A stretch of DNA of 32,217 nucleotides from Pseudobdellovibrionaceae bacterium (lineage in GTDB: Bacteria; Bdellovibrionota; Bdellovibrionia; Bdellovibrionales; Bdellovibrionaceae). Shown here piece by piece: positions 14,512 through 32,217 of this stretch. Where the stretch lies: contig JAKFYD010000013.1 in assembly GCA_021731025.1 (NCBI GenBank), positions 1-32,217 of the forward strand, read 5' to 3'. The notes under the pieces are model-generated. The model saw only the letters and a program-made list of their open reading frames with translations. It was not told where the DNA came from and made no database searches. A program made the position numbers and the translations under genes. Each line of letters starts with the position of its first letter. The first letter of the stretch is position 1.

Positions 14512-15264
14512 ATGACTCGGCAAAAAATCATCGGGATTATTCCCGCCCGCAAAGGGGCTGTGCGCTTTCCAAATAAACCACTAGCCCTGATCCAGGGTAA
14601 ACCCATGATCCAGTGGGTGATCGAAGGCTCGTTAAAAGCAAAATCCCTTGATGAGCTTTATGTGGCTACCGATGATAAGGAAATTTTTTCGATCAGTGAA
14701 AAGGCTGGCGCAAAGGCCATCATGACTCCCTCGGAATTAGCTTCGGGAACTGATCGGCTTTACTTTGCGACAAAGAGTTTAAGCTATGATGTGGCCATCA
14801 ATATTCAAGGGGATGAGCCTTTGATTCAGGCTGAAGACATTGATGCTTTAGCAGGCGTTTATCTTCAGGGAGAGAAACCGGAAATGGCGACATTAGCTCA
14901 TCCAATTTCCCAGAGCGACCTGGCTTCGATGAATGCTGTTAAAGTCATCATCAATGCTCGGGGCGAGGCCATTTATTTTAGCCGATTCCCTATTCCTCAC
15001 TCTCGACATGACGCGAAATTATTTCCAGATGGACCTATTTGTCTCAAGCATGTCGGACTTTACGCTTATACTAAAAATTTTTTGAAAAGCTTTTGTGAGG
15101 CCGAGCCAGCCTTGATAGAAAAAGCAGAAGGCTTAGAGCAATTACGGGCTCTGCATTTAGGGGCGCGAATTCGGGTGCTGCAAATAAAAAATCAGACTTG
15201 GGGAATCGACACGCCGGAAGATTTGAATCGGTTAGAAGAGTGGTTAGTAAGGAATAAGAAATGA
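14512..15264 (+). CDS. kdsB: 3-deoxy-manno-octulosonate cytidylyltransferase (CMP-KDO synthetase)
   Basis: Activates KDO with CTP to give CMP-KDO for lipid A-core assembly, in the cytoplasm. The 250-residue sequence is full length for KdsB. The nucleotide-binding start [32 protein letters not shown] is characteristic, followed by [19 protein letters not shown] and the Mg2+/sugar motif [10 protein letters not shown]. Later segments ([25 protein letters not shown], and WGIDTPEDL near the end) are also typical. A GAGAGAGGG stretch lies upstream of the ATG inside engB. Its stop overlaps the pyrG start (ATGA at 15261-15264), which fits the biochemistry because PyrG makes its CTP substrate. Confidence 0.96.
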
Positions 15265-17000
15265 AAAAATCAGCACGAAAAATTTCAACACAGAAGTCAG
15301 TAAAACAAGCCATGAAACAAAAATTTATTTTTGTTACCGGCGGAGTTGTTTCTTCAATTGGTAAGGGTCTAACGGCTGCAAGCCTTGGTGCCTTGCTTGA
15401 AGCTCGGGGAATCAACGTCACGATCATGAAGTTCGATCCCTACTTAAATGTCGATCCCGGAACGATGTCACCTTTTCAACACGGTGAAGTTTATGTCACT
15501 GAAGATGGTGCTGAAACTGATTTGGATTTAGGTCACTACGAAAGATTCACTTCGGCAAGGATGACCCGCTCGAACAGCGTTTCGACGGGGCAGATTTACG
15601 ACATGGTGATTGGTCGTGAACGTAAAGGAGATTATCTGGGGGGCACGGTGCAAGTGATTCCCCATATCACCGATGAAATTAAAGCCCGTACGTTCGAAGC
15701 CGCGCAGGGTAGTGAAGTTATTATTGTCGAAATTGGTGGAACTGTTGGGGATATCGAGGGGCAGCCTTTCCTCGAAGCCATCCGTCAGATGCGGAATGAA
15801 GTTGGATTGGAAAATTCAGTCTTAGTTCATGTGACTTACGTCCCCTACATCGCAGCCGCGGGCGAATTGAAGAGCAAACCGACCCAGCATTCCGTTAAAG
15901 AATTGCGCATGATTGGTTTGCAACCTGATTTTCTTGTTTGCCGAAGTGAAAAGTTCATTGATGAATCCTTGAAGAAAAAAATTGCTTTATTTTGTTCGGT
16001 AAAACCCGAACACGTGGTTGGAGCTCAAGACTCGGGAACCATTTACGAGGTTCCTTTAGCACTTCATAAAGAAGGTTTAGATCAGCTGATTGTGGATCGG
16101 CTTGATATTACGGGCGATAATACCGACCTTCGTGGTTGGACGAAAATTGTTAAAACATTGAAGAATCCTGGCCGAAGTTTACGAATTGGCGTTGTGGGTA
16201 AATATGTTGATTTAAAAGAATCTTATAAATCTTTGCATGAAGCTATCGTTCACGGCGGGATTGCCAATGACTGTAAAGTAGAAATTGTTTATGTCGATTC
16301 CGAAAAATTAAATGACAAAGTTATTTCCCAAGCCTTGGGCGAAGTTCACGGGATACTAGTTCCCGGAGGTTTTGGCAGTCGGGGAGTCGAGGGAAAAATC
16401 GCAGCGATCAAATACGCTCGCGAAAAGCAGGTGCCTTTCTTTGGAATTTGTTTTGGAATGCAATTAGCGGCCATTGAATTTGCCCGCAACGTCTGCGGAA
16501 TTAAAGATGCCACCTCGCGAGAGTTTGTCGGTGAGAATGCTCGCGGCAATTTGGTTATTGATTTTATGGTCGAGCAAAGAGCCCAATCCCAGAAAGGCGG
16601 AACAATGCGCCTGGGAGCTTTTGCTTGCGACATTAAACCGGGAACTAAAACTCACCAAATCTACCGTGAAAATCGTATCCAGGAACGTCATCGCCACCGC
16701 TACGAATTCAATAATAAATATAAGGATCTTTTTCAGAAGAAGGGCTTAGTTGCGGCGGGCCTTTGCAAGGAAAGAAATTTAGTTGAGATCATTGAACTGC
16801 CTGATCATCCTTGGTTCATCGGGGTGCAATTTCACCCTGAATTTAAATCGAAGCCTTTGGCTCCGCACCCACTGTTCACCCAGTTTGTGAAAGCTTCATT
16901 GCAACGAAAAAGTGTTTTCGAACCCGCGATGAAAACGAAGGTCATTAAACTTTCTCGTGATTCTGGAAAAAAAGAATCGCGCAAGTCTGCGTTGGTTTAA
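15261..17000 (+). CDS. pyrG: CTP synthase
   Basis: Makes CTP from UTP, ATP and glutamine. The 579-residue protein has the synthetase domain from about residue 18 ([26 protein letters not shown], then [21 protein letters not shown] and the [17 protein letters not shown] motif) and a class I glutaminase domain with GICFGMQLA (nucleophile Cys) and the His-Glu pair in [10 protein letters not shown]. There is a 17-residue basic extension before the usual first Met. I keep the longer start because AAGGA lies seven bases before ATG 15261, while the internal ATG at 15312 has no ribosome-binding site. A short basic tail of about 20 residues follows the glutaminase. It overlaps kdsB by four bases, and kdsD follows 3 bases after its stop. 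Confidence 0.97.
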
Positions 17001-17003
17001 AAG

Positions 17004-17989: not shown

Positions 17990-19012
17990 TTATTTAGACC
18001 AGTTGGTTTTTTTAGCTTTGTCAGTCATATCGGTAAAAGTGAATTTAACACCTTCACCCAAAAGCGCACTCGTAAAAGTGCAGTCAAAATTATAATCTTT
18101 ATCTAGGAAATAAAACTTTTTGCACGACAGAGTAACAGTATTTTGTGTCGGCGAGGTCATCGCTTGTAAGGTAGTACTTCCAGTTAAGCTCCCGCTCACA
18201 TCATTCCAAATAATAATAGGAAAGCTGACCATCAGGACTCCTACTGCATTCATACTGGCGATTAAATGAATCTCTCTGTGAGGTTTTAGGATAAATAGCA
18301 CTTCGTCATATCGAGTGCGTACAGGTTGTTGCACATTCAAACGTACTGATAAATTTTCTAATTCTCTTGTTCTTGGATTTCGAGCAAGGCCGGTGCCTGT
18401 GTATATTTTTTGTATAGGATCACGCTCTGAAATAACGTCAGGTTTTCGATTCATTGCAAGGTCTTCTAGAGAACTATTGTCTTGATTCAGAGTAAATCTT
18501 CCGCCCTCATATATACCACTGGCGCTTGCCGCGTACATTCTTCCTTCGAGGATTCCGCCAGCAATATTGCCTTCAATCATAATTATTTCTTTAGCTTCTC
18601 TTCCGAGCTCATTGGTAAAAGGAATTTCAATTTCCGTATGAAAGTGACCAGTATTAGGTTCGTAAACGCTGATGTTTGGTGTTTCTCCAATCGAAGCTGC
18701 ATAAGTGCCGTAATATTTAACGTTGGCTAAAAGAATAGGTTGGGCTGAAGCCCGTGACCCATCGTTGTTGTTTACCGTTTGTGTAGTTGCAATCAAAGAA
18801 ATTGTTACTGCACCAAGGTTAGTTTTCTCTTGTCCAGGTCTATTAGAAGTTAAATACCCTGAGTAAGAGCCTTCGATAGCTTTATACTCAGCTAAGTCAG
18901 TTTGAAGTTTTTCGTTTTTGTAATCATCCAGATCTTTGTCTTTGCTGCAAGAACTGATGATGAGCAATCCGCCAAACAATAGAACAAATAAATTTAAAAG
19001 TCTGTAGTTCAT
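17990..19012 (-). CDS. Lipoprotein of unknown function, last gene of the TolC cassette
   Basis: A 340-residue protein I do not recognise. The start is ATG 19012, with GAGGGG six bases upstream; the frame continues a few codons further without support. The signal MNYRLLNLFVLLFGGLLIISSC gives a canonical lipobox with Cys22. The mature part alternates short beta segments with polar loops (YSGYLTSNRPGQ, VTISLIATTQTV, NISVYEPNTGHFHTEIEI) and has a possible disulfide pair near the end (LSCKKFYF and FDCTFTS). The overall look is of a beta-rich envelope protein, perhaps peripheral to an outer-membrane complex. It is the fourth gene of a minus-strand series with two TolC-type proteins and a barrel-like protein, with an 11-base gap to the previous stop. 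Confidence 0.7.
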   Translation of the reverse strand: MNYRLLNLFVLLFGGLLIISSCSKDKDLDDYKNEKLQTDLAEYKAIEGSYSGYLTSNRPGQEKTNLGAVTISLIATTQTVNNNDGSRASAQPILLANVKYYGTYAASIGETPNISVYEPNTGHFHTEIEIPFTNELGREAKEIIMIEGNIAGGILEGRMYAASASGIYEGGRFTLNQDNSSLEDLAMNRKPDVISERDPIQKIYTGTGLARNPRTRELENLSVRLNVQQPVRTRYDEVLFILKPHREIHLIASMNAVGVLMVSFPIIIWNDVSGSLTGSTTLQAMTSPTQNTVTLSCKKFYFLDKDYNFDCTFTSALLGEGVKFTFTDMTDKAKKTNWSK

Positions 19013-19022
19013 AAAATTCCCC

Positions 19023-19733
19023 TCAGTTCCAGCCAATTCGCGTACCTAAAGCTATTCCAGTTCCGCTTATGGATGCCCCATTTAGATTTTGCGTTTTTTC
19101 AATTGATACGTTTATAGCCATTTCATCGACACCTAGCCACTGGTTCAACGGCCACACATTGATGAGCGCGCCAGCAGAAAAATAAAGAGGCCATTCGACA
19201 GCGTTAATACCACCATTAAATTCCGATTTTTGGCTTTGAATCCAGGTCGGTTGAATTGCCAAATTCGCATAGGGTCGTAAGGTTGAAAGATACTCGCGGT
19301 TTGTTTTCCATTCTGAGCCAATGAGAGCTTGGTATAAATTGGTTTTTTGGCTGACAGCATAGTTACTTGATTCAATAGTAAGTTGCCCTTCTCGTTCAAG
19401 TTGTAAATATGAAAACCCCAATTTTGTCGAAAGTCGACCAATGCTTGTATCGGCTCCAGCTGAAATGTAATTAAATGTCAGCTTGGGAGTGCTTGATTTT
19501 GAAAATTCAGTCGTCATTGGCAACCGGCTCTCTTGTTGGAGTTGATCAGGTTTCCAGCTGGAAAATTCAAAGCCAATGAAATGGGGAGCGATTGTTTTTT
19601 TAGGGTCTATTGTAGGTAGACTCAATTCCCCTTGTGGAATTTCAAAAGTAATATCTTCAGATTTGCGAGGGACCTCTGCTAGGGCTGAATTTAAAATAAA
19701 AAAAGAAATGAAGATAAAAATTATATGTCTCAT
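19023..19733 (-). CDS. Probable outer-membrane beta-barrel protein of unknown function
   Basis: A 236-residue exported protein. Signal peptide MRHIIFIFISFFILNSALA with likely cleavage after residue 19. The mature sequence from about residue 60 shows alternating hydrophobic and polar residues in strands of 9-11 (LSTKLGFSYLQLEREGQLTI, LRPYANLAIQPTWIQ, WPLYFSAGALINVWP, GTGIALGTRIGWN), the pattern of a small barrel. The last residue is Asn, although the final strand is otherwise typical. No family is recognisable. It starts inside the stop of the upstream TolC-type gene (4-base overlap, 19730-19733) and is followed 11 bases later by the lipoprotein gene, so all three are coupled. Confidence 0.65.
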   Translation of the reverse strand: MRHIIFIFISFFILNSALAEVPRKSEDITFEIPQGELSLPTIDPKKTIAPHFIGFEFSSWKPDQLQQESRLPMTTEFSKSSTPKLTFNYISAGADTSIGRLSTKLGFSYLQLEREGQLTIESSNYAVSQKTNLYQALIGSEWKTNREYLSTLRPYANLAIQPTWIQSQKSEFNGGINAVEWPLYFSAGALINVWPLNQWLGVDEMAINVSIEKTQNLNGASISGTGIALGTRIGWN

Positions 19734-21055
19734 TGTTTATCACTTTCCAAGATGGCCGTTAGTTTATTTAAATCTTGCCCTGAAGAAATGAAGTAATTTG
19801 TTACGGCTTGGATGTAATTGTATTTTTCATCGTTTAATGTTTGTTCAGCTTGGGCATAGGCTTGCTGGACAGTTAAAAGCTGAAGCAAATCAATAGTCGC
19901 GTAACGATAATTTTTCTTTGCTTCTTCGTTAGAAGAAGTCGCTAATTTTAGCGCCTCATCGCCAGAGAGAATTGAATTGTGTGCAGTCTCTAAATTTTTT
20001 CGCCCACTGATTTGCTGAAAATTGAAGTTGCTAATACTGTTCTTTTGCAAAAACTCCAACTGCAATCGTTGAGATGAGTACTGACTTTGCTCATACATTG
20101 ACGAGAAGCCTGAGAATAGAGGAATAGTCAACTGCAGGCCAAGATACCAGCTGTTTGAAAGAGGATTATAGAGTTCTTCTTTTTTATAATTTGCAAAATT
20201 ATAGCTGCCAATCAGTGAGAGCGACGGAAGATGTTTCCCCAGAGCAACTTGCTTCTTATCACCAATTTGCGAAAGCTCTAGCTCAATTCTTTCTAGCTCG
20301 GGAATTTTATACTCTTTGAGATTAATTGCTCGGTCTATCTCGGTAATGCCGGGTATTGCGAGGTCTGATTTAATTCTAAAGCTTTGCTCTATATTTTCTC
20401 CCATAAGAAAAGCTAAATTTGCTGCGGCAATTTGCTGCTGATTTTTTGCAGCGGCGATTTTTGCCTCCTGGAGGGCGAGCTGGGTTCGGATTTGCAAGAC
20501 ATCTAATCTTCGTCCACGTCCAATGCGCATGTGTTGTTCAGCTACTTTTTGTGATTCTTTAACAAGGCGTTGTTGATACATTAATGTTTCAACGCTGCGG
20601 GTGCTAAAAACAATTCGATAATAACTGAGTATTACGGCCTTGATTAAATCTCGCTCAGTGATTTCAGAATCTAATTTTCCAACCTCCATGTCTTTTTTGA
20701 CTGAATTAATAGCGGAAAAAGTTCCAACCCTGAACAGAGGCTGAATAAGTTTAACTTCTGTAGAGTAAGTGTTGTAACTGTGTCCATCCATAACAGCAGT
20801 GCCATTGGCAACAGAATCTTTTTTTTGTAAAGCTGAAACAGTAGCTTCAACATTTGGATACAAGCTTCCTCTGACTGTTGAAGTTGTAAGGTCTAATTGA
20901 TGGATTTTTTCCCGAGCAGCTTTTAAAGAAGGATTATTTGCTAATACAGTATCGATTGCAGATTTCAATGTCATTAACTTTTGCGGTGAAGGCTTTTGGG
21001 CTTCAACTTGAAAAGTGAGAAGTATAAGTAGAGTTAAAATATATAAGTGTTTCAT
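19730..21055 (-). CDS. TolC-family outer-membrane channel protein
   Basis: A 441-residue protein with signal peptide MKHLYILTLLILLTFQVEA and the double helical-hairpin layout of outer-membrane efflux proteins. The first half opens with LKSAIDTVLANNPSLKAAREKIHQLDL and GSLYPNVEATVSAL; the second repeats the pattern with LELSQIGDKKQVALGKHLPSLSLIGSYNF, then a long coiled helix and a late segment ATIDLLQLLTVQQAYAQAEQTLNDEKYNY that is typical of the family. TolC proteins trimerise to form the outer-membrane exit duct for RND, ABC or MFS pumps. No membrane-fusion or pump gene is nearby. It lies 5 bases after a second TolC-type gene, and it overlaps the downstream gene by four bases. Confidence 0.9.
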   Translation of the reverse strand: MKHLYILTLLILLTFQVEAQKPSPQKLMTLKSAIDTVLANNPSLKAAREKIHQLDLTTSTVRGSLYPNVEATVSALQKKDSVANGTAVMDGHSYNTYSTEVKLIQPLFRVGTFSAINSVKKDMEVGKLDSEITERDLIKAVILSYYRIVFSTRSVETLMYQQRLVKESQKVAEQHMRIGRGRRLDVLQIRTQLALQEAKIAAAKNQQQIAAANLAFLMGENIEQSFRIKSDLAIPGITEIDRAINLKEYKIPELERIELELSQIGDKKQVALGKHLPSLSLIGSYNFANYKKEELYNPLSNSWYLGLQLTIPLFSGFSSMYEQSQYSSQRLQLEFLQKNSISNFNFQQISGRKNLETAHNSILSGDEALKLATSSNEEAKKNYRYATIDLLQLLTVQQAYAQAEQTLNDEKYNYIQAVTNYFISSGQDLNKLTAILESDKQ

Positions 21056-21060
21056 AAAAT

Positions 21061-22455
21061 TTACTTCTTACCGTTTGGTCCTTTACACTGTTGATCAACT
21101 GTTTTCTGAGCTTGTTGGCTACTAAAGAAGTTTTTAATTTCTTTCCAAACACTGTTTTTAACTTGTTTAGCCTGACAGGGTTGAATTTTTTGGAATTCAT
21201 CCATAAGAACCGCGCGGTGTAAATTTATACGCAAGTTATTCAGGTCCATTTGACTGCGCACGCGGGCCGTGGATGCTTGAACTACGGCGTTTTGCGTATC
21301 AAGAATATGCAGTAGATCTGTTAAGCCCAAAGCGTAATTTGAAGTCTGTTGTTCCAGAACTTTCTTTAGGCCTTCTTCCGCTTCAGTGGCTTGAGCCAAC
21401 TGTAGCTTTGCATGGGTGATCATTCCTAAACTTGATTCGATAATTTGCGTTTGTTCAGTTTGAATTTCTCTGCGTCTTAACTCGAGTCGGTCAGTGATCA
21501 AGTTCGTTAATGCCAATGCCGGAAAATAACTGAAACTAAAATTAAATTGAGCTTCTGCTCTCATGTTCTTAAAAGCGATAGAATTGTTCTCATTCGCACC
21601 AACACTCAATGCGCCGTTACTGATAAACGCAAAAGCTTTGCTCCACTTACCGGCTTTGCTGGCAGTTATCAAATTTCCGATTTGACTAAATTCAGGAGAA
21701 ACCTGGAGTGCGTAGTCGAGAGTTTCGCGAGGAGTTTTTTCTTCAAAGGGGGAGGGGGGCACCGTGAAGTCTTTAAACTCAATCGAGTCTTCAAGACGCA
21801 AAGCTAGCATTTGACGAATTAATGGGGTTTCCTTTGCTAGCAATTTATCCATTTCAGAAACTTGAGAACCAGCTAACTTTGTTTCAGCCATAGATTGTTC
21901 GTAGTCTGTTTCGCTGATTATACCCAAGAGCCATCGTGTTCGATTAATCTCCTGAATCTTCAATAAATTTTGGTACTGCTGATTAAGAACTTCTCGCAGC
22001 TCTCGATCCCCCTTAATGGTTACAAGAAGAGTGTAGGCAGAAGCGTAGAGATTTAACTCTAAGAGGTAATAAGAAAATTTTTCGGCTTCAAAGATGTATT
22101 TGCTTTCTTCATAATTAAACCAGTTGCTTGGCACTAAGAATGGCAAAAGGAAAGAAACTGTGCTTATAAAAAAACCGCTGCCGGCTTCATTGAGGGCCAC
22201 TCCTAAGTTCAGTGACGGCAAGAGTTGAGTGCGAGCGTAATTGATTCCCTGTTTAGCTTGATAAACGTCGTTCAGAGCTTGCATGATCGCAAGATTATTG
22301 CCTAGCAAATGCTGTCTTAAATTTTCTGGTGTAAGTACCAAGACTTTTGGCGGTGGCGGAGGTGGTGCTGACTTTTTCGAAGGAGCTTTTGTCGGAGCCG
22401 CGATAAGGTTTAAAGAAAAGCAAAATAACGTCAGAAACCCAATGTATTTTTTCAT
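21061..22455 (-). CDS. Second TolC-like outer-membrane protein, proline-rich N terminus
   Basis: A 464-residue protein, first gene of the minus cassette. After the signal peptide (MKKYIGFLTLFCFSLNLIAA) comes a short basic and proline stretch with six consecutive Pro (about residues 31-36), then a TolC-type helical protein: LTPENLRQHLLGNNLAIMQALNDVYQAKQGINYARTQLLPSLNLGVAL, two long helical hairpins, and LQQTSNYALGLTDLLHILDTQNAVVQA-like closing helices. It is more divergent than its neighbour, and a hydrophobic insertion (GFFISTVSFLLPFLVP) sits in the first half. The C terminus has two Cys (PCQAK and QQCKG). AAGGG lies eight bases before the start. A different partner or a mixed trimer with the neighbouring TolC protein is possible. 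Confidence 0.85.
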   Translation of the reverse strand: MKKYIGFLTLFCFSLNLIAAPTKAPSKKSAPPPPPPKVLVLTPENLRQHLLGNNLAIMQALNDVYQAKQGINYARTQLLPSLNLGVALNEAGSGFFISTVSFLLPFLVPSNWFNYEESKYIFEAEKFSYYLLELNLYASAYTLLVTIKGDRELREVLNQQYQNLLKIQEINRTRWLLGIISETDYEQSMAETKLAGSQVSEMDKLLAKETPLIRQMLALRLEDSIEFKDFTVPPSPFEEKTPRETLDYALQVSPEFSQIGNLITASKAGKWSKAFAFISNGALSVGANENNSIAFKNMRAEAQFNFSFSYFPALALTNLITDRLELRRREIQTEQTQIIESSLGMITHAKLQLAQATEAEEGLKKVLEQQTSNYALGLTDLLHILDTQNAVVQASTARVRSQMDLNNLRINLHRAVLMDEFQKIQPCQAKQVKNSVWKEIKNFFSSQQAQKTVDQQCKGPNGKK

Positions 22456-22563: not shown

Positions 22564-22739
22564 TAACGCTGTGCGACGCAAGTCACGGATCACAAGTAAA
22601 CCCTGAAATTTCTTCCTGTTTTATAATTCAAAAAAAGAAACATGACTTAAGACCAGATCCTAAGCCGAACCCTAATTAAGCATAGTCCTTTGTCTTGCCC
22701 TTGCTTGCCGATGACATTTTTATTTTCCACAATGATTCA

Positions 22740-23255
22740 GTGACATTAGATATACAAAGATTAAAGAACGTAAAGATGCTGGTGCTTGACGTTGATGGCG
22801 TGCTCACGGACTGCCGTTTATGGATGGACTCCAATGGTGAATGGAAAAGAATTTATTCCGTTCGCGATGGCGTTGGTATCAAAAGACTCCTCGAGCACGG
22901 ATACAAATTGGCTGTCATTACGGGTGCCACAGCAACAGACGTGCGTGCCCGAGTGAAGATGTTAGGGATTAACTTTCTCTATGAAGGTGCCCAAGATAAA
23001 ATCCCACCTTTTCAGCAGTTACAAAAAGACTCTGGGTTTGCTCCTCACGAAATGGCCTACATTGGGGATGATATCTTCGACATTCCACTGATTGAATCAG
23101 TCGCCCTGGGAGTCACTGTTCCTGAAGCCGTTGATGAAGTTAAACAAGTTGCTCACTACATCACGGCACGACCAGGTGGTAACGGAGCGGTACGGGAAAT
23201 CTGCGATTACATTTTTAAATTCGGCGCGCACTCGGGAAGGAATTCGGGGTCATGA
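22740..23255 (+). CDS. kdsC: 3-deoxy-D-manno-octulosonate 8-phosphate phosphatase
   Basis: HAD-superfamily phosphatase that converts KDO 8-phosphate to KDO. The catalytic motif LVLDVDGVLTD (Asp17 and Asp19 in this numbering) is followed by the KdsC-specific YSVRDGVGIKRLL, VITGATATDVRARVKMLGI, and the IGDDIFDIPLI and PGGNGAVREICDYI segments, all characteristic of the tetrameric KdsC group, which has no cap domain. I chose GTG 22740, which gives about 171 residues; a TTG at 22695 is also in frame. Neither has a good ribosome-binding site. The stop overlaps the first Glt-like gene (ATGA at 23252-23255). kdsC is separated from its pathway partners kdsB and kdsD by the TolC cassette. Confidence 0.92.
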   Translation: MTLDIQRLKNVKMLVLDVDGVLTDCRLWMDSNGEWKRIYSVRDGVGIKRLLEHGYKLAVITGATATDVRARVKMLGINFLYEGAQDKIPPFQQLQKDSGFAPHEMAYIGDDIFDIPLIESVALGVTVPEAVDEVKQVAHYITARPGGNGAVREICDYIFKFGAHSGRNSGS

Positions 23256-23974
23256 AAAAGCGTTTGGTCTTTGCAATGTTTGTTATTCATATTTTGGGAT
23301 TTTCTTTAGCTCGAGCTGCTGATCTTATTGAGCTTCCTACGGAAGAATTGGCAAAAGAATCAGTGACACCGATCTTCGATAAAAATCTTTCAACGAAAAA
23401 CCGAAATATTATAACGGAAAATAAATTCGACGTGAATGGCTTTTATGGTTGGGCTTTGACTGAGCCAATTGCAAGCGTCAGCAAATTAGGATTGTCCCTT
23501 TACTATAATACCAGTGAACATCATGCTTGGGGCCTGATGTTTGCGAAAACAATTTCGGGACTTTCTGAGTACGCTAAACAGTTGAAAAAACAATACGGTC
23601 TTGATTTTTCTCGTGCACCAGCGCCGGATACCACTCTTATGTTGGATTATAATCTGAAAGCTTTTTATGGGAAAATGAGTCTGACGAAAAAAAGTGTTTT
23701 GAATATGCATATGATCTTTTCGGCGATGGGTGGAGTTGTTAAATACGAACATAAAACTTACCCAGCCGGTGCTTTTGGTGTTGGACAAAAATTTTATTTC
23801 AGTAAGGACTGGGGTTTGCGATTAGATCTTAGAGTTTTTGCGCACAGTGCTCCGATTCCCTTTTTAGGTAACAACAAATTGAAAGAGCCAACGCCGGTTC
23901 CTGATTTTACTGAGTTTAAAGAACGAATGACCTTAACGTCAGTGCTGGATATCGGTCTGTCTTATTTATTTTGA
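23252..23974 (+). CDS. Outer-membrane beta-barrel protein, GltA/GltB-like by position
   Basis: A 240-residue exported protein: signal peptide MKKRLVFAMFVIHILGFSLARA, a short acidic stretch (IELPTEELAKE), then about eight amphipathic strands (LGLSLYYNTSEHHAWGLMFAKTI, VLNMHMIFSAMGGVVKYEH, WGLRLDLRVFAHS) ending DIGLSYLF, where the terminal Phe is the usual outer-membrane barrel signature. The role is inferred from context: two barrels, then TPR proteins, a TPR lipoprotein and an FHA-TonB-like protein correspond to the Myxococcus Glt machine, whose GltA and GltB are outer-membrane barrels. Which of the two it matches cannot be told from reading. It begins within the kdsC stop codon, an unusual coupling. 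Confidence 0.75.
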   Translation: MKKRLVFAMFVIHILGFSLARAADLIELPTEELAKESVTPIFDKNLSTKNRNIITENKFDVNGFYGWALTEPIASVSKLGLSLYYNTSEHHAWGLMFAKTISGLSEYAKQLKKQYGLDFSRAPAPDTTLMLDYNLKAFYGKMSLTKKSVLNMHMIFSAMGGVVKYEHKTYPAGAFGVGQKFYFSKDWGLRLDLRVFAHSAPIPFLGNNKLKEPTPVPDFTEFKERMTLTSVLDIGLSYLF

Positions 23975-23982
23975 GGTATGGT

Positions 23983-24771
23983 GTGAAACGAAGTTTATTA
24001 AAAGTTCTTTTAGGTCTTTCGGTTTTGGGAGTGAGTCCTGTTTATGCTCAGGACACAGACACCCAAGAATTGAATGTGATCGAACTTGAATTAGAAAAAA
24101 ATACGGTGGCACCACCTGAAGAGACAGCTCCCAGCAGCGCTCCTGCGACGAAATCCGAAGTTAACTCCAGTGGTGAATTTTCTGAGCTCGGGGGACTAGC
24201 TCCTTTTACTGAGGTCTCTGTCATTCAGAAAAAATATATGCCTAAAACGGGGCGGTTTCAGCTTTTTGGTGGTCTGGCGCTAACGACCAATGATCCTTTC
24301 TATAACACCACTGGATTTACCCTCAAGGGCAGTTACTTTTTAACAGAGACTTGGGGCTTAGAAGTCAGTTACTTCTCGATGTCTTCAACCGAAGCTAAAG
24401 CCACCAAAGAGCTGCTCGAGATCCAAAATATTGGTACGGACAGCTTAGCTTATACAAAAAATTATTTAGGGATCGCGATTTTGTATGTGCCTATTTACGG
24501 AAAGATGACACTTTTTAACGAAAAAATTGTTCCTTTCGATTTTTATTTTGGTTTAGGAACAGGCAATACAAAAACTCAAGTTAAAGACAGCACAAGCACT
24601 CTGCATTTTTCAACGGGACAGATTTTTGCCGTTAATAAAAGTTTTGCTTTGCGCTGGGACTTCAGTTGGAACTTTTTCAGTGCCAAAGCCGTTAATGAAG
24701 AAGGAACAATCAATAATCTCTTTCTGTCTTTAGGTGCTAGTTTCTTCTTTCCGGAGGCCAAGTACCGATGA
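23983..24771 (+). CDS. Second outer-membrane beta-barrel protein, GltA/GltB-like by position
   Basis: A 262-residue exported protein. The start is GTG 23983, with GAGG about six bases upstream, giving the signal peptide MKRSLLKVLLGLSVLGVSPVYA. A Pro, Ala and Ser rich stretch (about residues 38-55) leads to a barrel-like region with strands FQLFGGLALTTNDPFYN, WGLEVSYFSMSS, YLGIAILYVPIYG, PFDFYFGLGTG, FALRWDFSWNFF and LFLSLGASFFF, ending PEAKYR without the terminal aromatic residue. It resembles the preceding gene in size and layout and may be its barrel partner. It starts 8 bases after the upstream stop and overlaps the next gene by four bases (ATGA at 24768-24771). Confidence 0.75.
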   Translation: MKRSLLKVLLGLSVLGVSPVYAQDTDTQELNVIELELEKNTVAPPEETAPSSAPATKSEVNSSGEFSELGGLAPFTEVSVIQKKYMPKTGRFQLFGGLALTTNDPFYNTTGFTLKGSYFLTETWGLEVSYFSMSSTEAKATKELLEIQNIGTDSLAYTKNYLGIAILYVPIYGKMTLFNEKIVPFDFYFGLGTGNTKTQVKDSTSTLHFSTGQIFAVNKSFALRWDFSWNFFSAKAVNEEGTINNLFLSLGASFFFPEAKYR

Positions 24772-26366
24772 GGAATTTCATGAATTCAAAATTGAAACGA
24801 AAGAAAAATTGGATCTTGTTGGCTTTAGTGACTCCAGCCTTTATTTTTTCTGCAGCACAAGCTAAAGGCCCTACATCTTCGAAACCAAAAATGATTTCGG
24901 GCGCTGGAAGTTCAAGAAATGCTTCTTTAAGACAGCAACTTTCCCAGGCTTTATCCTTAGCAAAAGCTGGACAGTATCAACCCGCAGCAACTTCTTTGTT
25001 TAACTTGGCTCGTCGCCCCGAGCTCGAGTCGGATAAAGCACAGATCAAATATATTTTGGGATTGATGCTCATGGAGCTGCAACTGAATCAAGTGGCTGCT
25101 TTTCAATTTGTCGATGTCATTCGTTTAGGAAATGCAAAGTACACCAAATTAGCTATCGAAAAATTATCAACGGTCGCTGATAACTTGGGAGATGACACCT
25201 TATTGAATTACGCAATTTCTCGGATTGATGTGAATGATGTACCGGCGAACGGGAAAGACATGGTCTTATTCCGTATTGGTGAAATTAAGCTCAAGAATAA
25301 AAAATTTGAAGAAGCCGTACAGAATTTTTCTAAAGTTCAGTCGGGAAGCAGTTATTACAATCAGGCTCTCTTCAATCGAGGACTAGCTGAATTAGAAATG
25401 AACCGTGCCGAAGCCGCCATAAAAAGTTTTCAGCAATTGCTCAATTTAAGAAGCAAAGCTGGCGTCACTGACACGAATCGGGTTGCTGCACAGCTGGCTT
25501 TGGCGAGAGCTCATTACCAAAAACAAGATTGGGAAGTTTCCGTCGAAGCTTATTCACAAATTCCGCGAGATCATTTTTTATGGCACCAAGCTTTGTTTGA
25601 GCAATCATGGGCCATGCTGCGCGCTGCTCGCTTTCGTTCAACGCTAAGTAACTTTCAATCTTTGCATTCGGCCTATTATGAAGACTTTTATATTCCTGAA
25701 TCATTGCTTTTGCGTTCGATCGTCTATTTATACATTTGTAAGTATGACGAGATGGAAAAAGTTCTTTCACTTTTTGAAAAGTCTTATTCGCCCGTCAGAA
25801 ACAAAATTAACACCTTCCTTACTCATACTGATCCCATGGTTTATTACAGCGAAATTGAAAAGGCTCAGGCCTTGAAAAAAGGGGAAGAGCTGAAAACGGC
25901 ATCGCGATTGCCCTACTTGGTCGTCAGAAATATTTCGGAAGAGGGTGATGTTCGCCGGGCTGCCAGTTACTTGAAAAGACTCGCTGATGAAAAACAGATG
26001 ATTGAATCGCAATCTCAGCTAAGAACATCAGGAATTGGCCAATATGCTTTGAAAGTCATCGCAACCCGAGCTCGCAATACAAAATTGGCGATGGGGGATA
26101 TGGTTAAAGCCCATCTTCAGAATATGCGTCTTGAATTAAAAGATCTTTTTGAGCAGGCCTCTTTCATTCGTTACGAAATGATCAACGGTAAAAAAGAAAG
26201 TTTGAAAAAAAGAATTTCTGGGAAAAATCTTCCAGTACCTATCGATGAAAAAATCGATCGCGATTTTTATATTGAGAATGGCTACGAGTACTACACCTTC
26301 CAGGGTGAATACTGGCTTGATGAGATTGGAAATTTTCATTACTTGGGTCAACAAAGTTGTGAGTAG
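24768..26366 (+). CDS. Exported TPR-repeat protein, GltC-like
   Basis: A 532-residue periplasmic protein with a signal peptide ending SAAQA (about residue 32). The middle (about 50-330) is built of TPR-like helical pairs: LSLAKAGQYQPAATSLFNLA, IGEIKLKNKKFEEAVQNFSKV, LFNRGLAELEMNRAEAAIKSFQQLL and ALARAHYQKQDWEVSVEAYSQI. The last part (about 390-532) is helical and then ends in a short strand-rich tail (FYIENGYEYYTFQGEYWLDEIG). In Myxococcus the periplasmic TPR protein GltC follows the two barrels and forms a complex with them, and the same order occurs here. I keep ATG 24768 (GGAGG ten bases upstream); ATG 24780 with AGGA five bases upstream is an equally possible start. Confidence 0.8.
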   Translation: MRNFMNSKLKRKKNWILLALVTPAFIFSAAQAKGPTSSKPKMISGAGSSRNASLRQQLSQALSLAKAGQYQPAATSLFNLARRPELESDKAQIKYILGLMLMELQLNQVAAFQFVDVIRLGNAKYTKLAIEKLSTVADNLGDDTLLNYAISRIDVNDVPANGKDMVLFRIGEIKLKNKKFEEAVQNFSKVQSGSSYYNQALFNRGLAELEMNRAEAAIKSFQQLLNLRSKAGVTDTNRVAAQLALARAHYQKQDWEVSVEAYSQIPRDHFLWHQALFEQSWAMLRAARFRSTLSNFQSLHSAYYEDFYIPESLLLRSIVYLYICKYDEMEKVLSLFEKSYSPVRNKINTFLTHTDPMVYYSEIEKAQALKKGEELKTASRLPYLVVRNISEEGDVRRAASYLKRLADEKQMIESQSQLRTSGIGQYALKVIATRARNTKLAMGDMVKAHLQNMRLELKDLFEQASFIRYEMINGKKESLKKRISGKNLPVPIDEKIDRDFYIENGYEYYTFQGEYWLDEIGNFHYLGQQSCE

Positions 26367-26388
26367 GGACTCTCAGAGGAAATTGTAA

Positions 26389-29300
26389 ATGCAACAGGAT
26401 CATCGTTCGCAGGTAAAAATAAAAAATAAGACAATGACTTTCACCGTGACAGCCCTGGTGACGAGCATTTGCTTAATTCTGACGACTCCGTTAGCCGAAG
26501 CGAAGAAAAAAAACAACACGACGAAGAAGTCGACTAAAAAAACGGTAGGGGAACTTCTTTCACAGGTTTCCAAGGCCGATCGCGGCAGCAATCTTAAAAC
26601 AGAAAAACTTCGCACGGCTATCCCAGGTTCTGAACTGAATTTTAAAAAACCTCCCAGCAATTATAATTTAGAACAAGTAAAGCCTCCGCACACTTCCGAA
26701 ATTTTAGTAACTTCGGAACAGCCGCAAGAAGGTTTGGCCGAGTACGAAAAAATTCTTGATCAGCAAATTGCTGAGCTGTTTAAACTGACGAAAAAATTTA
26801 AAGACAGCCCAAATCGGGGAGAATACTGGCTACGACTTGCAGAGTTGTACGTTGAAAAATCAATGTTGATCGATGGCCGTCAACAAGAGGAATTCGATCG
26901 TAAATTAAAAGCCTACAATGAGGGCAAAACCAAGAAAAAACCTATTTTAAATACAACCGATGCCAAAGCCTATAATAAGAAGGCCTTGCAGCTTTATGAA
27001 TGGTTTCAGAAAGATTTCCCTACTGATCCTAAAATGGCTCAGGCGCTTTATTTTTTGGGCTATAACAATTTTGAATTGGGTAACGAAAAAAAAGGCGCTG
27101 AATTTTACCAACGCCTTAATAAAAGTTATCCGGGCAGCCCATTTATTGGAGAATCAAAATTTGCTTTGGGCGAATACTATTTTGATAATGAAAAGTGGAG
27201 CATTGCTTACGAAGAGTATTCGACTTTGATTAAGGACAAAAGACATCAACTGCATCCTTTTGCGACTTACAAAGGCGCTTGGTGTTTGTACCGCCTTGGA
27301 AAATTTAAAGATGCATTGAAGTACATGGAGTACATGATCAGAAGCGGTCGTGGTGAAAACGCGGCCACGGGTGAAGGACGTCGAGTTGTTAATCGAAATA
27401 AACTCGAAGCCGAAGCTATGCGCGATATTGTCGTCTTCTATGCGGCGGCGGGCGATCCACAAAAAGCACCGGATTATTTCCGAGATCTCATCGGGAAAGA
27501 TGAATGGGTATACGTCGAGAAATTAGCTTATTACAGTGTTGATAAAGGCAGCAAGGAAAGCACCCAAGAGCTTTTCAAATTATTAATTAATCGCGAGCCA
27601 ATGGGGCCAAAGGCTTTTGAGTATCAGTATCAAATTGTACAAAGCAATTTTTATTCTAAGAACTCACCGCGTTTCCGTGAAGAACTAACACGTTGGATTC
27701 GGGATTACGGAGTTAGCAGTCAGTGGGCCGCAAGCAATCAAGCCAATCAAGAATTGTTAAATAATGCCTATAAATTGCGTGAGCAAACTTTAAGAAACTG
27801 GATTTTGCAGCAGCATCAGACCGCTCAAAATTCACGAACGAAGACGTCTCAGCAGTCAGCCAATGAAGGATATAAACTTTACTTGCAAGAATTTCCAACT
27901 TCGCCAACCATCGCGGACATGCATTTTTATCATGGAGAACTGTTGTACGATATGGGTCTCTATGATGAAGCCGGCTTAGAGTACAAGTGGGTTGTTGATA
28001 ATGCGGCCCAAAGCAAATTTGCGGATAAAGCTGCGCAAAATCTTTTGCATTCCGTTGAGCGCAGTCTGCCTAAGGACGAAGAGATGCTCAAGAGGGTCGG
28101 GAAAAATACGGACCCAATTCCTCTTGATCCCAAGTCCGAGCGTTTTATTGTCTCTGCCCAAAGTTATTTGGAAAAGTTTCCACACTCGAACAAAGCTCAA
28201 GAGATTAGATTTCGTATGGGACGATTGTACTATCAGCACAATCAATTCACGGAAGCTAAAAAAATATTTCAGGAAATCATCAAGAAGGGGCCAAAATCCA
28301 AGTTTACCGATTATTCGGCAAATTTAATTTTGGACATCTACAATTTACAAAAAGACTACATCGGTTTAGAAAAAGCGGGCGCCGAAATTCTTGCAAGTCC
28401 AACGATAGCAGGAACAAAAGCGGGTGATGAAATACGTTCCGTCATCGAAAAATCGAATTTCAAAAAAGCTCAAACTTTAGAAAATGATAAAAAGTACGCC
28501 GAGAGCGCAGTTCAGTATGACTTGTTTGCGGCTCAAAATCCCAATTCGGAATTAGCTGTGATGGCCTTATTTAATGCGGGGATCAATTACGAGCGCGCCA
28601 GTCAAAATGATAAAGCCGTGGCTGTGTACCAAAAAGTTGTTAGGTCTAAAGATAAAGACTTGCGCGATAAAACAAAACGACTGTTAGCTAAACTTTATCA
28701 AGACGCTGGTTTGTTTGAAGAGTCGGCACGGCTTTACAAAGAATCCGCAGAAGACTCTCCGAAGGATCCTTTGGCCGCCAACTTTATTTTTAATGCAGCG
28801 GTGATGTATGAAGCTCTTGGAAAGAATCAAGAGGCTTTGAATAATTACAAATTGTTCTTAGAAAAATCCAAACGCAACAGTGATAAAAAAGAAGTTCACT
28901 TTACGATGGCGCAAATTTATCGCAAGATGAACCAAAGATCGAACGCCATTGAAAAATATCAAGAGTACCTCGAGTCTTATCCTGCAGATGAAGAAAATAT
29001 TGTTGAAGCTCATTATCATTTGTCGCAATTGAATCGAAAATCAGATGAAGTGAAAGAATGGAAAGAAAAAACCATTCGTGTTCAAAGACGTTTGGCTCAA
29101 AAACGAAAAGGGGCGGGGGCTCACTATGCGGCTTTGTTGCGTTTAGAGCAGGCTCAAGAAAGTTTTAAAAATTTTCGGAGCGCAAATATTTCTACGGATC
29201 CTAAAAGACAAAAGCAAACCCTGGATCACAAATTAGGTTTGTTAACTCAGCTGAATAAAGATCTCAGTGAAGTGGTCAAATTAGATAGCGCTGAAGAGAT

Positions 29301-29616
29301 GGTCAGTTCATTGAGTCTCATTGGTGAAGCGAATCTTCACATGGCTCACTCTATCCTGAATGCTCCAGTGCCCAAAGGGCTTACTCCCGATGAAGAAAAG
29401 CAATACCGCGAAGGAATTACTAAATTCGCTGAGCCTTTCAATGCGAAGGCGAAAGAGAGTTTTAAGTTGGCCGTCGATCGTGGTTTCGAACTTGAAGTTT
29501 ACAATACTGCTTTCCGCTCTGCTTACGATTATATGGCGAAGTACGATCCTAAAACTTATTATTCTTACGGTGAGTATGGCCAAGATGTGCGCTTTGTGAA
29601 TTGGATAGGTCAGTGA
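26389..29616 (+). CDS. Very large TPR-repeat protein, GltD-like
   Basis: A 1075-residue exported protein, by far the largest in the window. N-terminal region with a membrane or signal segment (FTVTALVTSICLILTTPLAEA, about residues 18-38) followed by a Lys-rich stretch. From about residue 120 to 940 it consists of many TPR units, including ALYFLGYNNFELGNEKKGAEFYQRL, KFALGEYYFDNEKWSIAYEEYSTL, RFRMGRLYYQHNQFTEAKKIFQEI and FTMAQIYRKMNQRSNAIEKYQEYL. The C-terminal 130 residues are helical without clear repeats. Size, TPR content and place between a TPR protein and a TPR lipoprotein fit GltD of the Myxococcus machine. AGGA precedes the ATG by eight bases. Its stop overlaps the next start (TGATG). 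Confidence 0.85.
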   Translation: MQQDHRSQVKIKNKTMTFTVTALVTSICLILTTPLAEAKKKNNTTKKSTKKTVGELLSQVSKADRGSNLKTEKLRTAIPGSELNFKKPPSNYNLEQVKPPHTSEILVTSEQPQEGLAEYEKILDQQIAELFKLTKKFKDSPNRGEYWLRLAELYVEKSMLIDGRQQEEFDRKLKAYNEGKTKKKPILNTTDAKAYNKKALQLYEWFQKDFPTDPKMAQALYFLGYNNFELGNEKKGAEFYQRLNKSYPGSPFIGESKFALGEYYFDNEKWSIAYEEYSTLIKDKRHQLHPFATYKGAWCLYRLGKFKDALKYMEYMIRSGRGENAATGEGRRVVNRNKLEAEAMRDIVVFYAAAGDPQKAPDYFRDLIGKDEWVYVEKLAYYSVDKGSKESTQELFKLLINREPMGPKAFEYQYQIVQSNFYSKNSPRFREELTRWIRDYGVSSQWAASNQANQELLNNAYKLREQTLRNWILQQHQTAQNSRTKTSQQSANEGYKLYLQEFPTSPTIADMHFYHGELLYDMGLYDEAGLEYKWVVDNAAQSKFADKAAQNLLHSVERSLPKDEEMLKRVGKNTDPIPLDPKSERFIVSAQSYLEKFPHSNKAQEIRFRMGRLYYQHNQFTEAKKIFQEIIKKGPKSKFTDYSANLILDIYNLQKDYIGLEKAGAEILASPTIAGTKAGDEIRSVIEKSNFKKAQTLENDKKYAESAVQYDLFAAQNPNSELAVMALFNAGINYERASQNDKAVAVYQKVVRSKDKDLRDKTKRLLAKLYQDAGLFEESARLYKESAEDSPKDPLAANFIFNAAVMYEALGKNQEALNNYKLFLEKSKRNSDKKEVHFTMAQIYRKMNQRSNAIEKYQEYLESYPADEENIVEAHYHLSQLNRKSDEVKEWKEKTIRVQRRLAQKRKGAGAHYAALLRLEQAQESFKNFRSANISTDPKRQKQTLDHKLGLLTQLNKDLSEVVKLDSAEEMVSSLSLIGEANLHMAHSILNAPVPKGLTPDEEKQYREGITKFAEPFNAKAKESFKLAVDRGFELEVYNTAFRSAYDYMAKYDPKTYYSYGEYGQDVRFVNWIGQ

Positions 29617-30518
29617 TGCAACATAATACTTTTTTTATGAAATTAATACTGTGGGGATTTTGTTTGGCAGCGATGGTGGGATGTTCTTCGAAGGAAAAGA
29701 AGGACAACGATGCGACCATGAATGAAGCTCTTCGAAGCGGTGTTAACTCGGTGATGGATTTTAATGATTCCCTCACTGAAACTGGGCAAGTTAAACCAAG
29801 TCCACGCCAAGAAACGCCTTTAAGCATTGCGGGATCTAAAGCTCCCAGCAGTTCGATTTACTGGAACTTGAACGAGGCCATCAAGATTCAAAACGATGAA
29901 ATGATTGTGAAAGAATCGACGCAAATTCTGCTCAAAAATCCTGGAGACTTGCGCGCCCTGAATGCTATGGCTGTTTCTTCCTACCGCAAAGGACGTTATA
30001 ATTTAGCTCGTTACCTTTTAAACAAAGCGAAGCAAGCGCATCCAAATTCTTCCGAAGTTTATTCGAACTTAGGCGTGGTCGATCTGGCTGTCGATGATAA
30101 AAGAAGCGCCATCCAAAATTTTAAGAAAGCCCTTCAGCTTAATTCTGAGGATGCTGTTGCTGCCGCAAATGTTGGATCATTGTATGTCAGAGAAAAAGAT
30201 TACGCCAAAGCTCGGGTAGCCCTCGAGGTCGCTTATCGAAAAGGCTTTCGCGATCCTAAAACGCTCAACAATTATGCAGTCGCTTTAGCCGCGAATGGAA
30301 AGTATGATAAAGCCAACGATATTTATGAAGAGGTGTTGAAACAACAGCCTTCCAACAAGGAAGCCCTTTTCAATTCGTCTGTTTTATTGATCGAACATTT
30401 GAAAAAATACAACGAAGGTCTAGATCGACTCCAAAAGTTGAAGTTCAGTGGTGGGCCAGCTGATTCCAAAAACAAAATTATTGCGTTGGAAAATAAGGCT
30501 AAAGCTGGTTTAAAATAA
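29616..30518 (+). CDS. TPR lipoprotein, GltE (AglT)-like
   Basis: A 300-residue lipoprotein. ATG 29616 shares its A with the stop codon of the preceding gene (TGATG), and the signal ending AAMVGCSS places the lipidated Cys at 23. A polar linker (about 24-85) is followed by TPR repeats from about residue 88 to 270: LLKNPGDLRALNAMAVSSYRKGRYNLARYLLNKA, VYSNLGVVDLAVDDKRSAIQNFKKAL, AAANVGSLYVREKDYAKARVALEVAY and LNNYAVALAANGKYDKANDIYEEVL. In Myxococcus, GltE (AglT) is a TPR lipoprotein encoded next to gltD and needed for gliding. The order here is identical, so this is one of the better supported members of the block. Confidence 0.85.
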   Translation: MQHNTFFMKLILWGFCLAAMVGCSSKEKKDNDATMNEALRSGVNSVMDFNDSLTETGQVKPSPRQETPLSIAGSKAPSSSIYWNLNEAIKIQNDEMIVKESTQILLKNPGDLRALNAMAVSSYRKGRYNLARYLLNKAKQAHPNSSEVYSNLGVVDLAVDDKRSAIQNFKKALQLNSEDAVAAANVGSLYVREKDYAKARVALEVAYRKGFRDPKTLNNYAVALAANGKYDKANDIYEEVLKQQPSNKEALFNSSVLLIEHLKKYNEGLDRLQKLKFSGGPADSKNKIIALENKAKAGLK

Positions 30519-30539
30519 GTGATAGGATTTAGGTAAATA

Positions 30540-30854
30540 ATGCGTTCACACTTTGTTCGAAAATTTATATTCATGGTTTTTTTCGGCACCTTAATGGTGA
30601 CGGAATCCTATGCTCAAAATCAAGATGCCTTTTTTACCAAAGCTGCGACTAAGACTGCAAAACCTAAAGAAACAAAAGCAACTTTAAATTTCGAGGACGA
30701 GTTGGTCGAGGGAAATACGCAGAAGCCGGAACTTTTTTATCTTTTCCAGAAGAAAAATTTTAATTACAAGCGGCTTATTAAATTAAGAGAAAACTTTTTG
30801 CCCGAAATGAGAAAAACAACTGAGGATATTCAACGAGTGCGGAGTGGGAATTGA
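30540..30854 (+). CDS. Small exported protein, GltF-like by position
   Basis: A 104-residue protein with a signal peptide (MRSHFVRKFIFMVFFGTLMVTESYAQ, cleavage likely after residue 25) followed by a short charged helical protein that lacks Cys and has no recognisable domain (KPKETKATLNFEDELVEG, then LFYLFQKKNFNYKRLIKLRENFLPEM). TTAGG lies upstream of the ATG. It ends four bases into the following gene. In the Myxococcus set a small protein (GltF) sits between the TPR lipoprotein and the FHA protein, so position is the main argument. The reading frame is convincing through its coupling and signal peptide. Confidence 0.65.
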   Translation: MRSHFVRKFIFMVFFGTLMVTESYAQNQDAFFTKAATKTAKPKETKATLNFEDELVEGNTQKPELFYLFQKKNFNYKRLIKLRENFLPEMRKTTEDIQRVRSGN

Positions 30855-32217
30855 AAACGCCTGTTATATTGCGTGTTTTTAAAGGCAATCAGCTGAAAGA
30901 GGTCAAACAATTTGACCTGGATCAAATTGTTATTGGTCATGAGGCCGAAGTTCAATTGGATTTGGATGATGAAGCGGTTTCACCGATTCACTGTCTGATC
31001 GAAATGCGCGATAGCGGTTATTACATTTGTGATCTTGGTTCAAAATCGGGAACTTTCAAAAATGGCCAGCAAGTCCTCGACGAAACATTGCAGTCGGGTG
31101 ACGAAGTCGGCGTTGGACCTTTTAAGCTTTCCTTCTTCGTTGGAGTTCCTAAGCCTCGCGCCAATCCCGTGAGCAATGGCATTGATGAAAAAACTCAGTT
31201 GATCGTTGCGGCTCCGGAAACGGTATCTCAACCAGTTCCTGAAAAAGCTCCAGAAATTCCGCAGTCAGTTCCAGTTCAGGTTAAGATCCCGGAATCGGTG
31301 CCTCAGGAAATCATTGAAAAACCGTCTATTAAAAAAATCGAAGAGCCCAAGGCAGCACCTAAAAAAGCCGTGACCCCAAAACCGGAAATTCGATCTCAGC
31401 CAAAAATTGCCGTCAGTGGAAAAAAGAAGAAACGCGTTTCTTTTGCTCCCGCCAGTGAAGTGGTCGATCTTAAGGATGTCTTGCGTCCTACAAAAGGAAA
31501 TGTTCTCGAAGTGATCGTGGCTTGGCGTGAACGCATTTTAAATACCTATCACTTCAAATACAAAGGTGCGATTCGCATTGGCGATACTAAGAATGAACAG
31601 ATTTCAATTCCAACAAAAAATATTCCGCGAGGTTGGCCGCTGATTGAGATCGGCACCTCTGTTAAGATCAATGTTCATTCGGAAATGAAACCTGAACTTT
31701 ACAACAGTTCGGGAACTCAAAATATTGAAGCTTTAACGGCCACTGGAAAATGCACCAGTGGTGCGAATGGACGACAAATCCGTCTCGATCAAAGTGAATT
31801 GCTAAAACTTTCTTTAGGTGATGGGAATATCAATATCTTTTTTCGCTTTGTTCCCCAAGCGCCTACCGTGCCTGTATCTCCGTTCTTCTTTTCAAGTTCT
31901 GAATTAGCGGGAGTTGTCCTTTCCGTGATCATTGCGGGAGTCCTGGCGTTTTATGTTTCTATTATGAAGCCGCCGGAAGATATGCCTGAACCGGTCGAAG
32001 TGAATCGCACGGCTGAAGTCATTTTCACAAAGCCTCTGCAAAATGTAACCAAGGTTCCTCCACCTCCGCCACCACCTCCTCAGGAGAAGGTGCCGCCGCC
32101 TCCACCAAAGGTTCCTGAAAAAGCGAAGGTTGAAGATAAAAGTCGTGAGCGACAGGTGAAGGGTGCACCAACCAACCAGCCAAAAGCACAACAAGCTTCC
32201 CAAGCGGCTCGTGCCAA
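30851..32217 (+). CDS. FHA-transmembrane-proline-rich (TonB-like) protein, GltG-like, truncated at window end
   Basis: An open frame from TTG 30851 (GGAG six bases upstream, four-base overlap with the previous gene) to the window edge, at least 455 residues with no stop. Domains in order: FHA (about 20-95) with IGHEAEVQLDL, AVSPIHCLIE, YYICDLGSKSGTFKNG; a Pro, Lys and Val rich linker (about 100-215); a folded middle domain (about 218-342, LEVIVAWRERILNTYHFKYKGAIRIGD, GWPLIEIGTSVKINV); one transmembrane helix (about 350-372); and a periplasmic proline-rich segment with runs of 9 and 5 Pro (about 400-422). This is the cytoplasm-to-periplasm layout of GltG, which couples the motor to the envelope. 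The FHA Arg is replaced by His30, while Ser44, His47 and Asn71 remain, so phosphothreonine binding may be weakened. Confidence 0.85.
   Translation, partial: MKTPVILRVFKGNQLKEVKQFDLDQIVIGHEAEVQLDLDDEAVSPIHCLIEMRDSGYYICDLGSKSGTFKNGQQVLDETLQSGDEVGVGPFKLSFFVGVPKPRANPVSNGIDEKTQLIVAAPETVSQPVPEKAPEIPQSVPVQVKIPESVPQEIIEKPSIKKIEEPKAAPKKAVTPKPEIRSQPKIAVSGKKKKRVSFAPASEVVDLKDVLRPTKGNVLEVIVAWRERILNTYHFKYKGAIRIGDTKNEQISIPTKNIPRGWPLIEIGTSVKINVHSEMKPELYNSSGTQNIEALTATGKCTSGANGRQIRLDQSELLKLSLGDGNINIFFRFVPQAPTVPVSPFFFSSSELAGVVLSVIIAGVLAFYVSIMKPPEDMPEPVEVNRTAEVIFTKPLQNVTKVPPPPPPPPQEKVPPPPPKVPEKAKVEDKSRERQVKGAPTNQPKAQQASQAARA

Follow-up and report, generated by a model that had tools for sequence, protein, structure and literature searches.

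A glt-agl operon conserved within the KDO/LPS-export locus of the Bdellovibrionales

The DNA analysed here (the window: 32,217 bases, the entire contig C42 of a 3.49 Mb Pseudobdellovibrionaceae genome in 81 contigs) closes with an operon of glt genes. As judged from sequence comparison, this is the order-wide Bdellovibrionales copy of the system published in Bdellovibrio bacteriovorus as the Bd0828-Bd0838 'tonB/agl' cluster. It lies inside a locus for KDO synthesis and LPS export, and this nesting is conserved across the order and was not seen outside it. We are fairly confident that the operon encodes an Agl-Glt machine that is driven by protons, spans the envelope and is orthologous to Bd0828-Bd0838; it would serve gliding and, in predators, prey attachment.

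Gene content of the operon

Seven co-directional genes occupy positions 23252-32217 of the plus strand, with gaps of -4, -4, +22, -16, +21 and -4 bases between them. The initial annotation had described a Glt-like co-linear operon of two barrels followed by C to G; its open reading frames, order and strand were all confirmed, and its gene names agree with profile matches to the TIGR04565, GltC, GltE, CglF and GltG models. The start that it gave, 22740, falls within kdsC, the putative head of the transcription unit. A scan for promoters and terminators gave no excess over shuffled sequences. The genes are as follows:

22695..23255 (+): kdsC, KDO-8-phosphate phosphatase; TIGR01670, 152 bits (cut-off 107); 4-base overlap with the first barrel gene
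23252..23974 (+): OMPa, outer-membrane beta-barrel of GltA/GltB type; signal peptide; TIGR04565 OMP_myx_plus, 91 bits (cut-off 60)
23971..24771 (+): OMPb, outer-membrane beta-barrel of GltB/GltA type; signal peptide and long periplasmic N-terminus; TIGR04565, 112 bits (cut-off 60)
24768..26366 (+): GltC, periplasmic TPR superhelix; NF033756, 172 bits (below the equivalog cut-off of 450)
26389..29616 (+): GltD-like periplasmic TPR protein of 1075 residues; TPR families
29601..30518 (+): GltE-like TPR lipoprotein; lipobox ...MVGC; NF033758, 51 bits (below the equivalog cut-off of 225), and position
30540..30854 (+): GltF/CglF, small exported protein; NF033764, 45.7 bits, E 5e-12 (below the equivalog cut-off of 90)
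30851..32217 (+): N-terminal two thirds of GltG, cut by the contig end; FHA domain (PF00498), one TM helix and a proline-rich region; NF033760, 120 bits (below the equivalog cut-off of 650)

By these scores, GltC, GltE and GltF/CglF are homologous to the Myxococcus families but are not certified equivalogs. The GltE match is weak because TPR repeats are common to other models. OMPa gave no phmmer match to Myxococcus GltA/B, so its name derives from family and position; OMPb matched both Myxococcus barrels, with 52 and 29 bits. In the AlphaFold model of OMPb the barrel starts at residue 95 (pLDDT mostly 70-95 in the barrel, mean 71.5 over the whole chain), and the best PDB matches of the model are OprG, OmpW and OmpA. 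The GltC model is a TPR-like superhelix over residues 47-483, for which the PDB search returned generic TPR superhelices only; in the alignment a C-terminal motif, YWLDEIGN..C, is conserved. For the GltD-like protein there was no specific NCBIfam model, and phmmer gave 242 bits to the protein at the nfs position of Myxococcus and 217 bits to the protein at the GltD position of Anaeromyxobacter.

In the FHA domain of GltG (window 30851-31150), a His replaces the usual phosphothreonine-contacting Arg, and the residue at this site varies among related genomes (R, H, N, S or A). Phosphopeptide binding by this domain is therefore doubtful. An FHA-sigma54 activator is encoded elsewhere in the window, at 12447-13697.

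The motor genes beyond the contig end

The end of the window and the start of another contig, C34, share about 127 identical bases (32091-32217 against C34 1-155). The first ~27 bases of C34, which are proline-rich codons, disagree with the window, and for this reason we infer the join between C42 and C34 rather than read it; the mismatch may reflect a difference between strains, a repeat or faulty assembly. The remainder of GltG follows:

G000:C34:1-924: GltG remainder, AgmX/PglI-TonB-like C-terminus; NF033768, 85.5 bits

Across the join, GltG has about 711 residues, compared with 713 in a genome of the same genus, and its architecture reads FHA domain, one TM helix, proline-rich region and AgmX/PglI-TonB-like C-terminus. 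Behind it, C34 carries in order AglR (TolQ-type), AglQ and AglS (ExbD-type), an LptC-LptA fusion, LptB and RpoN. The motor subunits match PF01618 (TolQ/ExbB) with 96.5 bits and PF02472 with 60 and 40 bits for the two ExbD-type proteins, in both of which the transmembrane Asp is conserved. A single 316-residue protein (C34 2704-3654) combines the LptC and LptA domains; proteins of similar length are encoded by most of the order genomes examined and also occur in other parts of the phylum.

Reading past position 32217 thus brought to light the agl motor genes that had been anticipated there, aglRQS directly after gltG, in the place of the unrelated TonB or secretion system that could have followed; GltJ was not found. 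A TolQ/ExbD-type motor together with a TonB-like GltG C-terminus could also belong to a TonB/Tol-type system for uptake or envelope maintenance, with GltG as the transducer for import or secretion, and Lambert 2010 indeed called such operons 'tonB-like/agl' (PMC2797640). This explanation is highly improbable: no TonB-dependent receptor or plug domain was found among the operon proteins, the barrel as modelled is small and resembles OmpW/OmpA, and GltC, GltF and GltG show specific similarity to Glt families.

Conservation across the order and the KDO/LPS-export locus

Conservation was assessed in 42 genomes of the order, including the one studied here. The genes OMPa-OMPb-C-D appear in the same order in 42/42, as the initial annotation had proposed to examine by comparing synteny across Bdellovibrionota; since they are conserved in 42 genomes, chance is excluded. 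The run through aglS was found wherever the contig was long enough, and the gltE model missed gltE in some genomes. Upstream, kdsC adjoins the barrels in 29 of the 42 genomes; downstream, 35 of 40 genomes have lptCA and lptB next. The exceptions to the latter are two reduced genomes that keep only rpoN or lptB-rpoN, two with lpt genes elsewhere and one ambiguous case. The layout of the locus is thus kdsC-[glt-agl]-lptCA-lptB-rpoN. One genome of the order with no kdsC at this position has a gene for an FHA-type protein close to the barrel genes (L063:2083-3360).

Further KDO genes lie just upstream of kdsC in the window (14512-17987), with four reversed genes between:

14512..15264 (+): kdsB, CMP-KDO synthetase; TIGR00466, 186 bits (cut-off 155)
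15261..17000 (+): pyrG, CTP synthase; TIGR00337, 796 bits
17004..17987 (+): kdsD, arabinose-5-phosphate isomerase; TIGR00393, 306 bits (cut-off 204)

The four reversed genes that split kdsD from kdsC span 17990-22455, and two of them encode TolC-like outer-membrane efflux proteins. In several relatives kdsD stands immediately before kdsC.

At phylum level, GltC was detected in 127 of 192 genomes sampled (E <= 1e-25). The genome of Geobacter sp. AOG1 yielded no GltC. All 13 of the loci opened outside the order have a block of barrel, C, D, F and/or E, and G, without OMPa. At the same 13 loci no adjacent kdsC or lptCA was present, and the motor was either reversed or not seen at all. Other orders have lptCA-lptB-rpoN as an unbroken run that contains no glt genes, in one genome with kdsA-kdsD before it. 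The most economical interpretation is that the ancestor of the order came to carry the glt-agl operon between its KDO genes and lptCA. No description of this nesting was found in the literature covered, from which most subscription journals were absent.

Identity with Bd0828-Bd0838

G036, one of the 42 genomes, has a 3,782,950-bp chromosome and is taken on the strength of this length to be B. bacteriovorus HD100; it carries the corresponding copy, the best match to the window operon in B. bacteriovorus, at 776.5-791.8 kb. It consists of 11 genes from kdsC to aglS, which fits the 11 numbers Bd0828-Bd0838, with the lpt genes behind. The gene order kdsC-OMPa-OMPb-C-D-E-F-G-R-Q-S, then lptCA-lptB-rpoN, is shared with the window operon, and the GltC proteins of the two are 61% identical. 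The same chromosome also has a mini-cluster, OMPb-C-F-OMPa, in which D, E, G and the motor are missing and GltC is full length (L078:7755-11076; G036, 3.49 Mb).

Luciano et al. 2011 had described the Bdellovibrio locus as one cluster of A-G plus aglRQS and named it the best gliding candidate (PMC3169522). A mutant of aglS, which is Bd0838, is defective in attachment to prey, killing and rounding (PMC6561027). This implicates the ortholog in prey attachment, one of the two roles that the initial annotation had suggested. Since lptCA-lptB come immediately after aglS, the attachment defect might alternatively result from polarity on LPS export.

Other glt/agl clusters in the genome

The genome contains four glt/agl clusters (the window operon, C34:5964-14672, and one each on C26 and C13), the same number as reported for B. 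bacteriovorus (PMC3169522, PMC2797640). Like the window operon, the other three have homologues of the barrel, R, Q, S, C, D and G; in the tree they are strongly diverged from the window operon. The cluster on C34, with the order barrel-R-Q-S-C-D-F-G, follows directly after rpoN; at this site it is also present in G006 and G035, and absent in HD100, G002, G003 and G007. It is followed by genes for a GYF/PilZ protein, apt and hpf, and a PDB search of the GYF/PilZ protein for likeness to GltJ returned nothing.

VWA/MIDAS-type lipoproteins are encoded in the clusters on C26 and C13 and are lacking in the window operon, for which any adhesin must come from elsewhere. The VWA lipoproteins of these two clusters (L024:1664-2761 and L025:13586-14707) weakly resemble the Bdellovibrio MIDAS adhesin and CglD. 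The genome also encodes an MglA polarity GTPase (C16:42006-42587; 65% identity over 194 residues).

Comparison with the Glt and Nfs systems

The Agl-Glt system of M. xanthus (clusters G1, G2 and M1) has homologues of GltA/B, C, D, E, F, G and AglR, Q and S in common with the window operon. It is spread over three loci, whereas the window operon forms one block and is embedded in the KDO/LPS locus. GltH, GltI, GltJ and GltK are all essential in Myxococcus. The GltJ model NF033761 found no full-length match in the genome studied here, mainly the shared C-terminal domain, and in Myxococcus it gave 561 and 351 bits on two contigs; GltH, GltI and GltK have been reported absent from Bdellovibrio (PMC3169522). 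With gltG also cut at 32217, the earlier description of a complete machine does not hold.

The single block had further been taken as a sign of an ancestral or streamlined version. As evidence for this the block is rejected, because such a block is also found in nfs, in the glt genes of Anaeromyxobacter, which have the same gene order, and in other orders of the phylum; moreover, the Bdellovibrio arrangement has been known since 2011. The window operon is neither a new kind of system nor evidence for an ancestral state.

Phylogenetic analysis placed the window GltC in an order-wide clade with the HD100 copy (support 100/99). In topology tests, grouping of this protein with Glt (AU p 0.26) and with Nfs (AU p 0.433) were both compatible with the data, and a Glt+Nfs grouping had support 65/52. 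Sequence information therefore does not discriminate between Glt (gliding) and Nfs (surface-glycan transport). In the AglR tree, a window clade of 10 genomes (100/100) is sister to the Myxococcus protein Mx_C55 and a Sorangium protein (92/91, not starred); Mx_C55 has 245 residues, which is the published length of AglR. Since one Myxococcus motor serves Glt and Nfs alike (PMC3858216), this placement does not settle function.

An Nfs-like transporter of surface glycan, which would move or organise LPS, capsule or bdelloplast material and whose loss would impair attachment only secondarily, through a disturbed surface, has to be weighed at this point. We regard it as rather unlikely, though likelier than the TonB/Tol-type explanation. 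A grouping with Nfs fits GltC equally well (AU p 0.43), and the nfs locus of M. xanthus has the same single-block order, barrel-barrel-C-D-E-F-G, with the same motor type powering both. Agl-Nfs transports spore-coat glycan (PMC3858216), and in most genomes of the order the operon is flanked by KDO-synthesis genes on one side and LPS-export genes on the other. No motor genes were seen alongside nfs, the genomic context of which differs from that of the window operon. Bdellovibrio relatives are not known to make myxospores. The AglR-clade motor does not discriminate between the two functions, but the known phenotype of the ortholog is prey attachment, and Bdellovibrio glides.

Proposed mechanism

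What the analysis itself shows is which genes are present and in what order, their homology, the phylogeny of the motor, and the conservation in the KDO/LPS-export locus throughout the order. A force path for the Agl-Glt machine, co-transcription with the lpt genes and a function in this species are inferred. In relatives, AglRQS is established as a motor powered by protons; it binds GltG and drives Glt or Nfs complexes along the envelope (PMC3169522, PMC3858216). In the window operon, AglR, Q and S (a TolQ-type and two ExbD-type subunits) would draw on the proton motive force at the inner membrane. GltG, held in that membrane by a single helix, with its FHA domain in the cytoplasm and a proline-rich, TonB-like arm in the periplasm, would carry the force outwards. 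The TPR scaffolds GltC, D and E, together with GltF, may then transmit it across the periplasm to the GltA/B barrels of the outer membrane; there it would move or tension surface contacts in gliding and, in predators, in prey attachment.

The family matches, the motor and GltG C-terminus, the transmembrane Asp, the AglR tree, the gene order in G036, the aglS phenotype, the proposal of Luciano 2011 and the presence of MglA all argue for this Agl-Glt reading. Against it stand the equivalog scores below cut-off, the absence of GltJ and the reported absence of H, I and K, and the failure of GltC to group with Glt rather than Nfs. Moreover, it is clusters other than Bd0828-Bd0838 that are stage-specific: Bd0411-0421 is induced in the early bdelloplast, Bd2368-2377 at exit and bd1480 on surfaces (PMC12546842, PMC9140294). 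A 2026 review also still calls the gliding machinery of Bdellovibrio unidentified (PMC13104615).

Significance for the Bdellovibrionales

Apart from the nesting among KDO and LPS-export genes, the results bear out in a new genome what was already known. Among the four paralogous clusters, the type found in the window keeps a fixed gene order throughout the Bdellovibrionales, and it was the motor gene of this cluster, aglS, that scored in prey attachment. One speculative proposal, which we put forward as improbable, is that the Agl-Glt system of Bdellovibrionales is expressed and functionally coupled with LPS synthesis and export. It would then be the housekeeping copy of the four clusters, moving, anchoring or spreading new LPS or gripping via LPS, with gliding and attachment built on that activity. 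The position within the KDO/LPS-export locus provides a concrete and testable reason to ask whether the cargo or the track of this machine is LPS.
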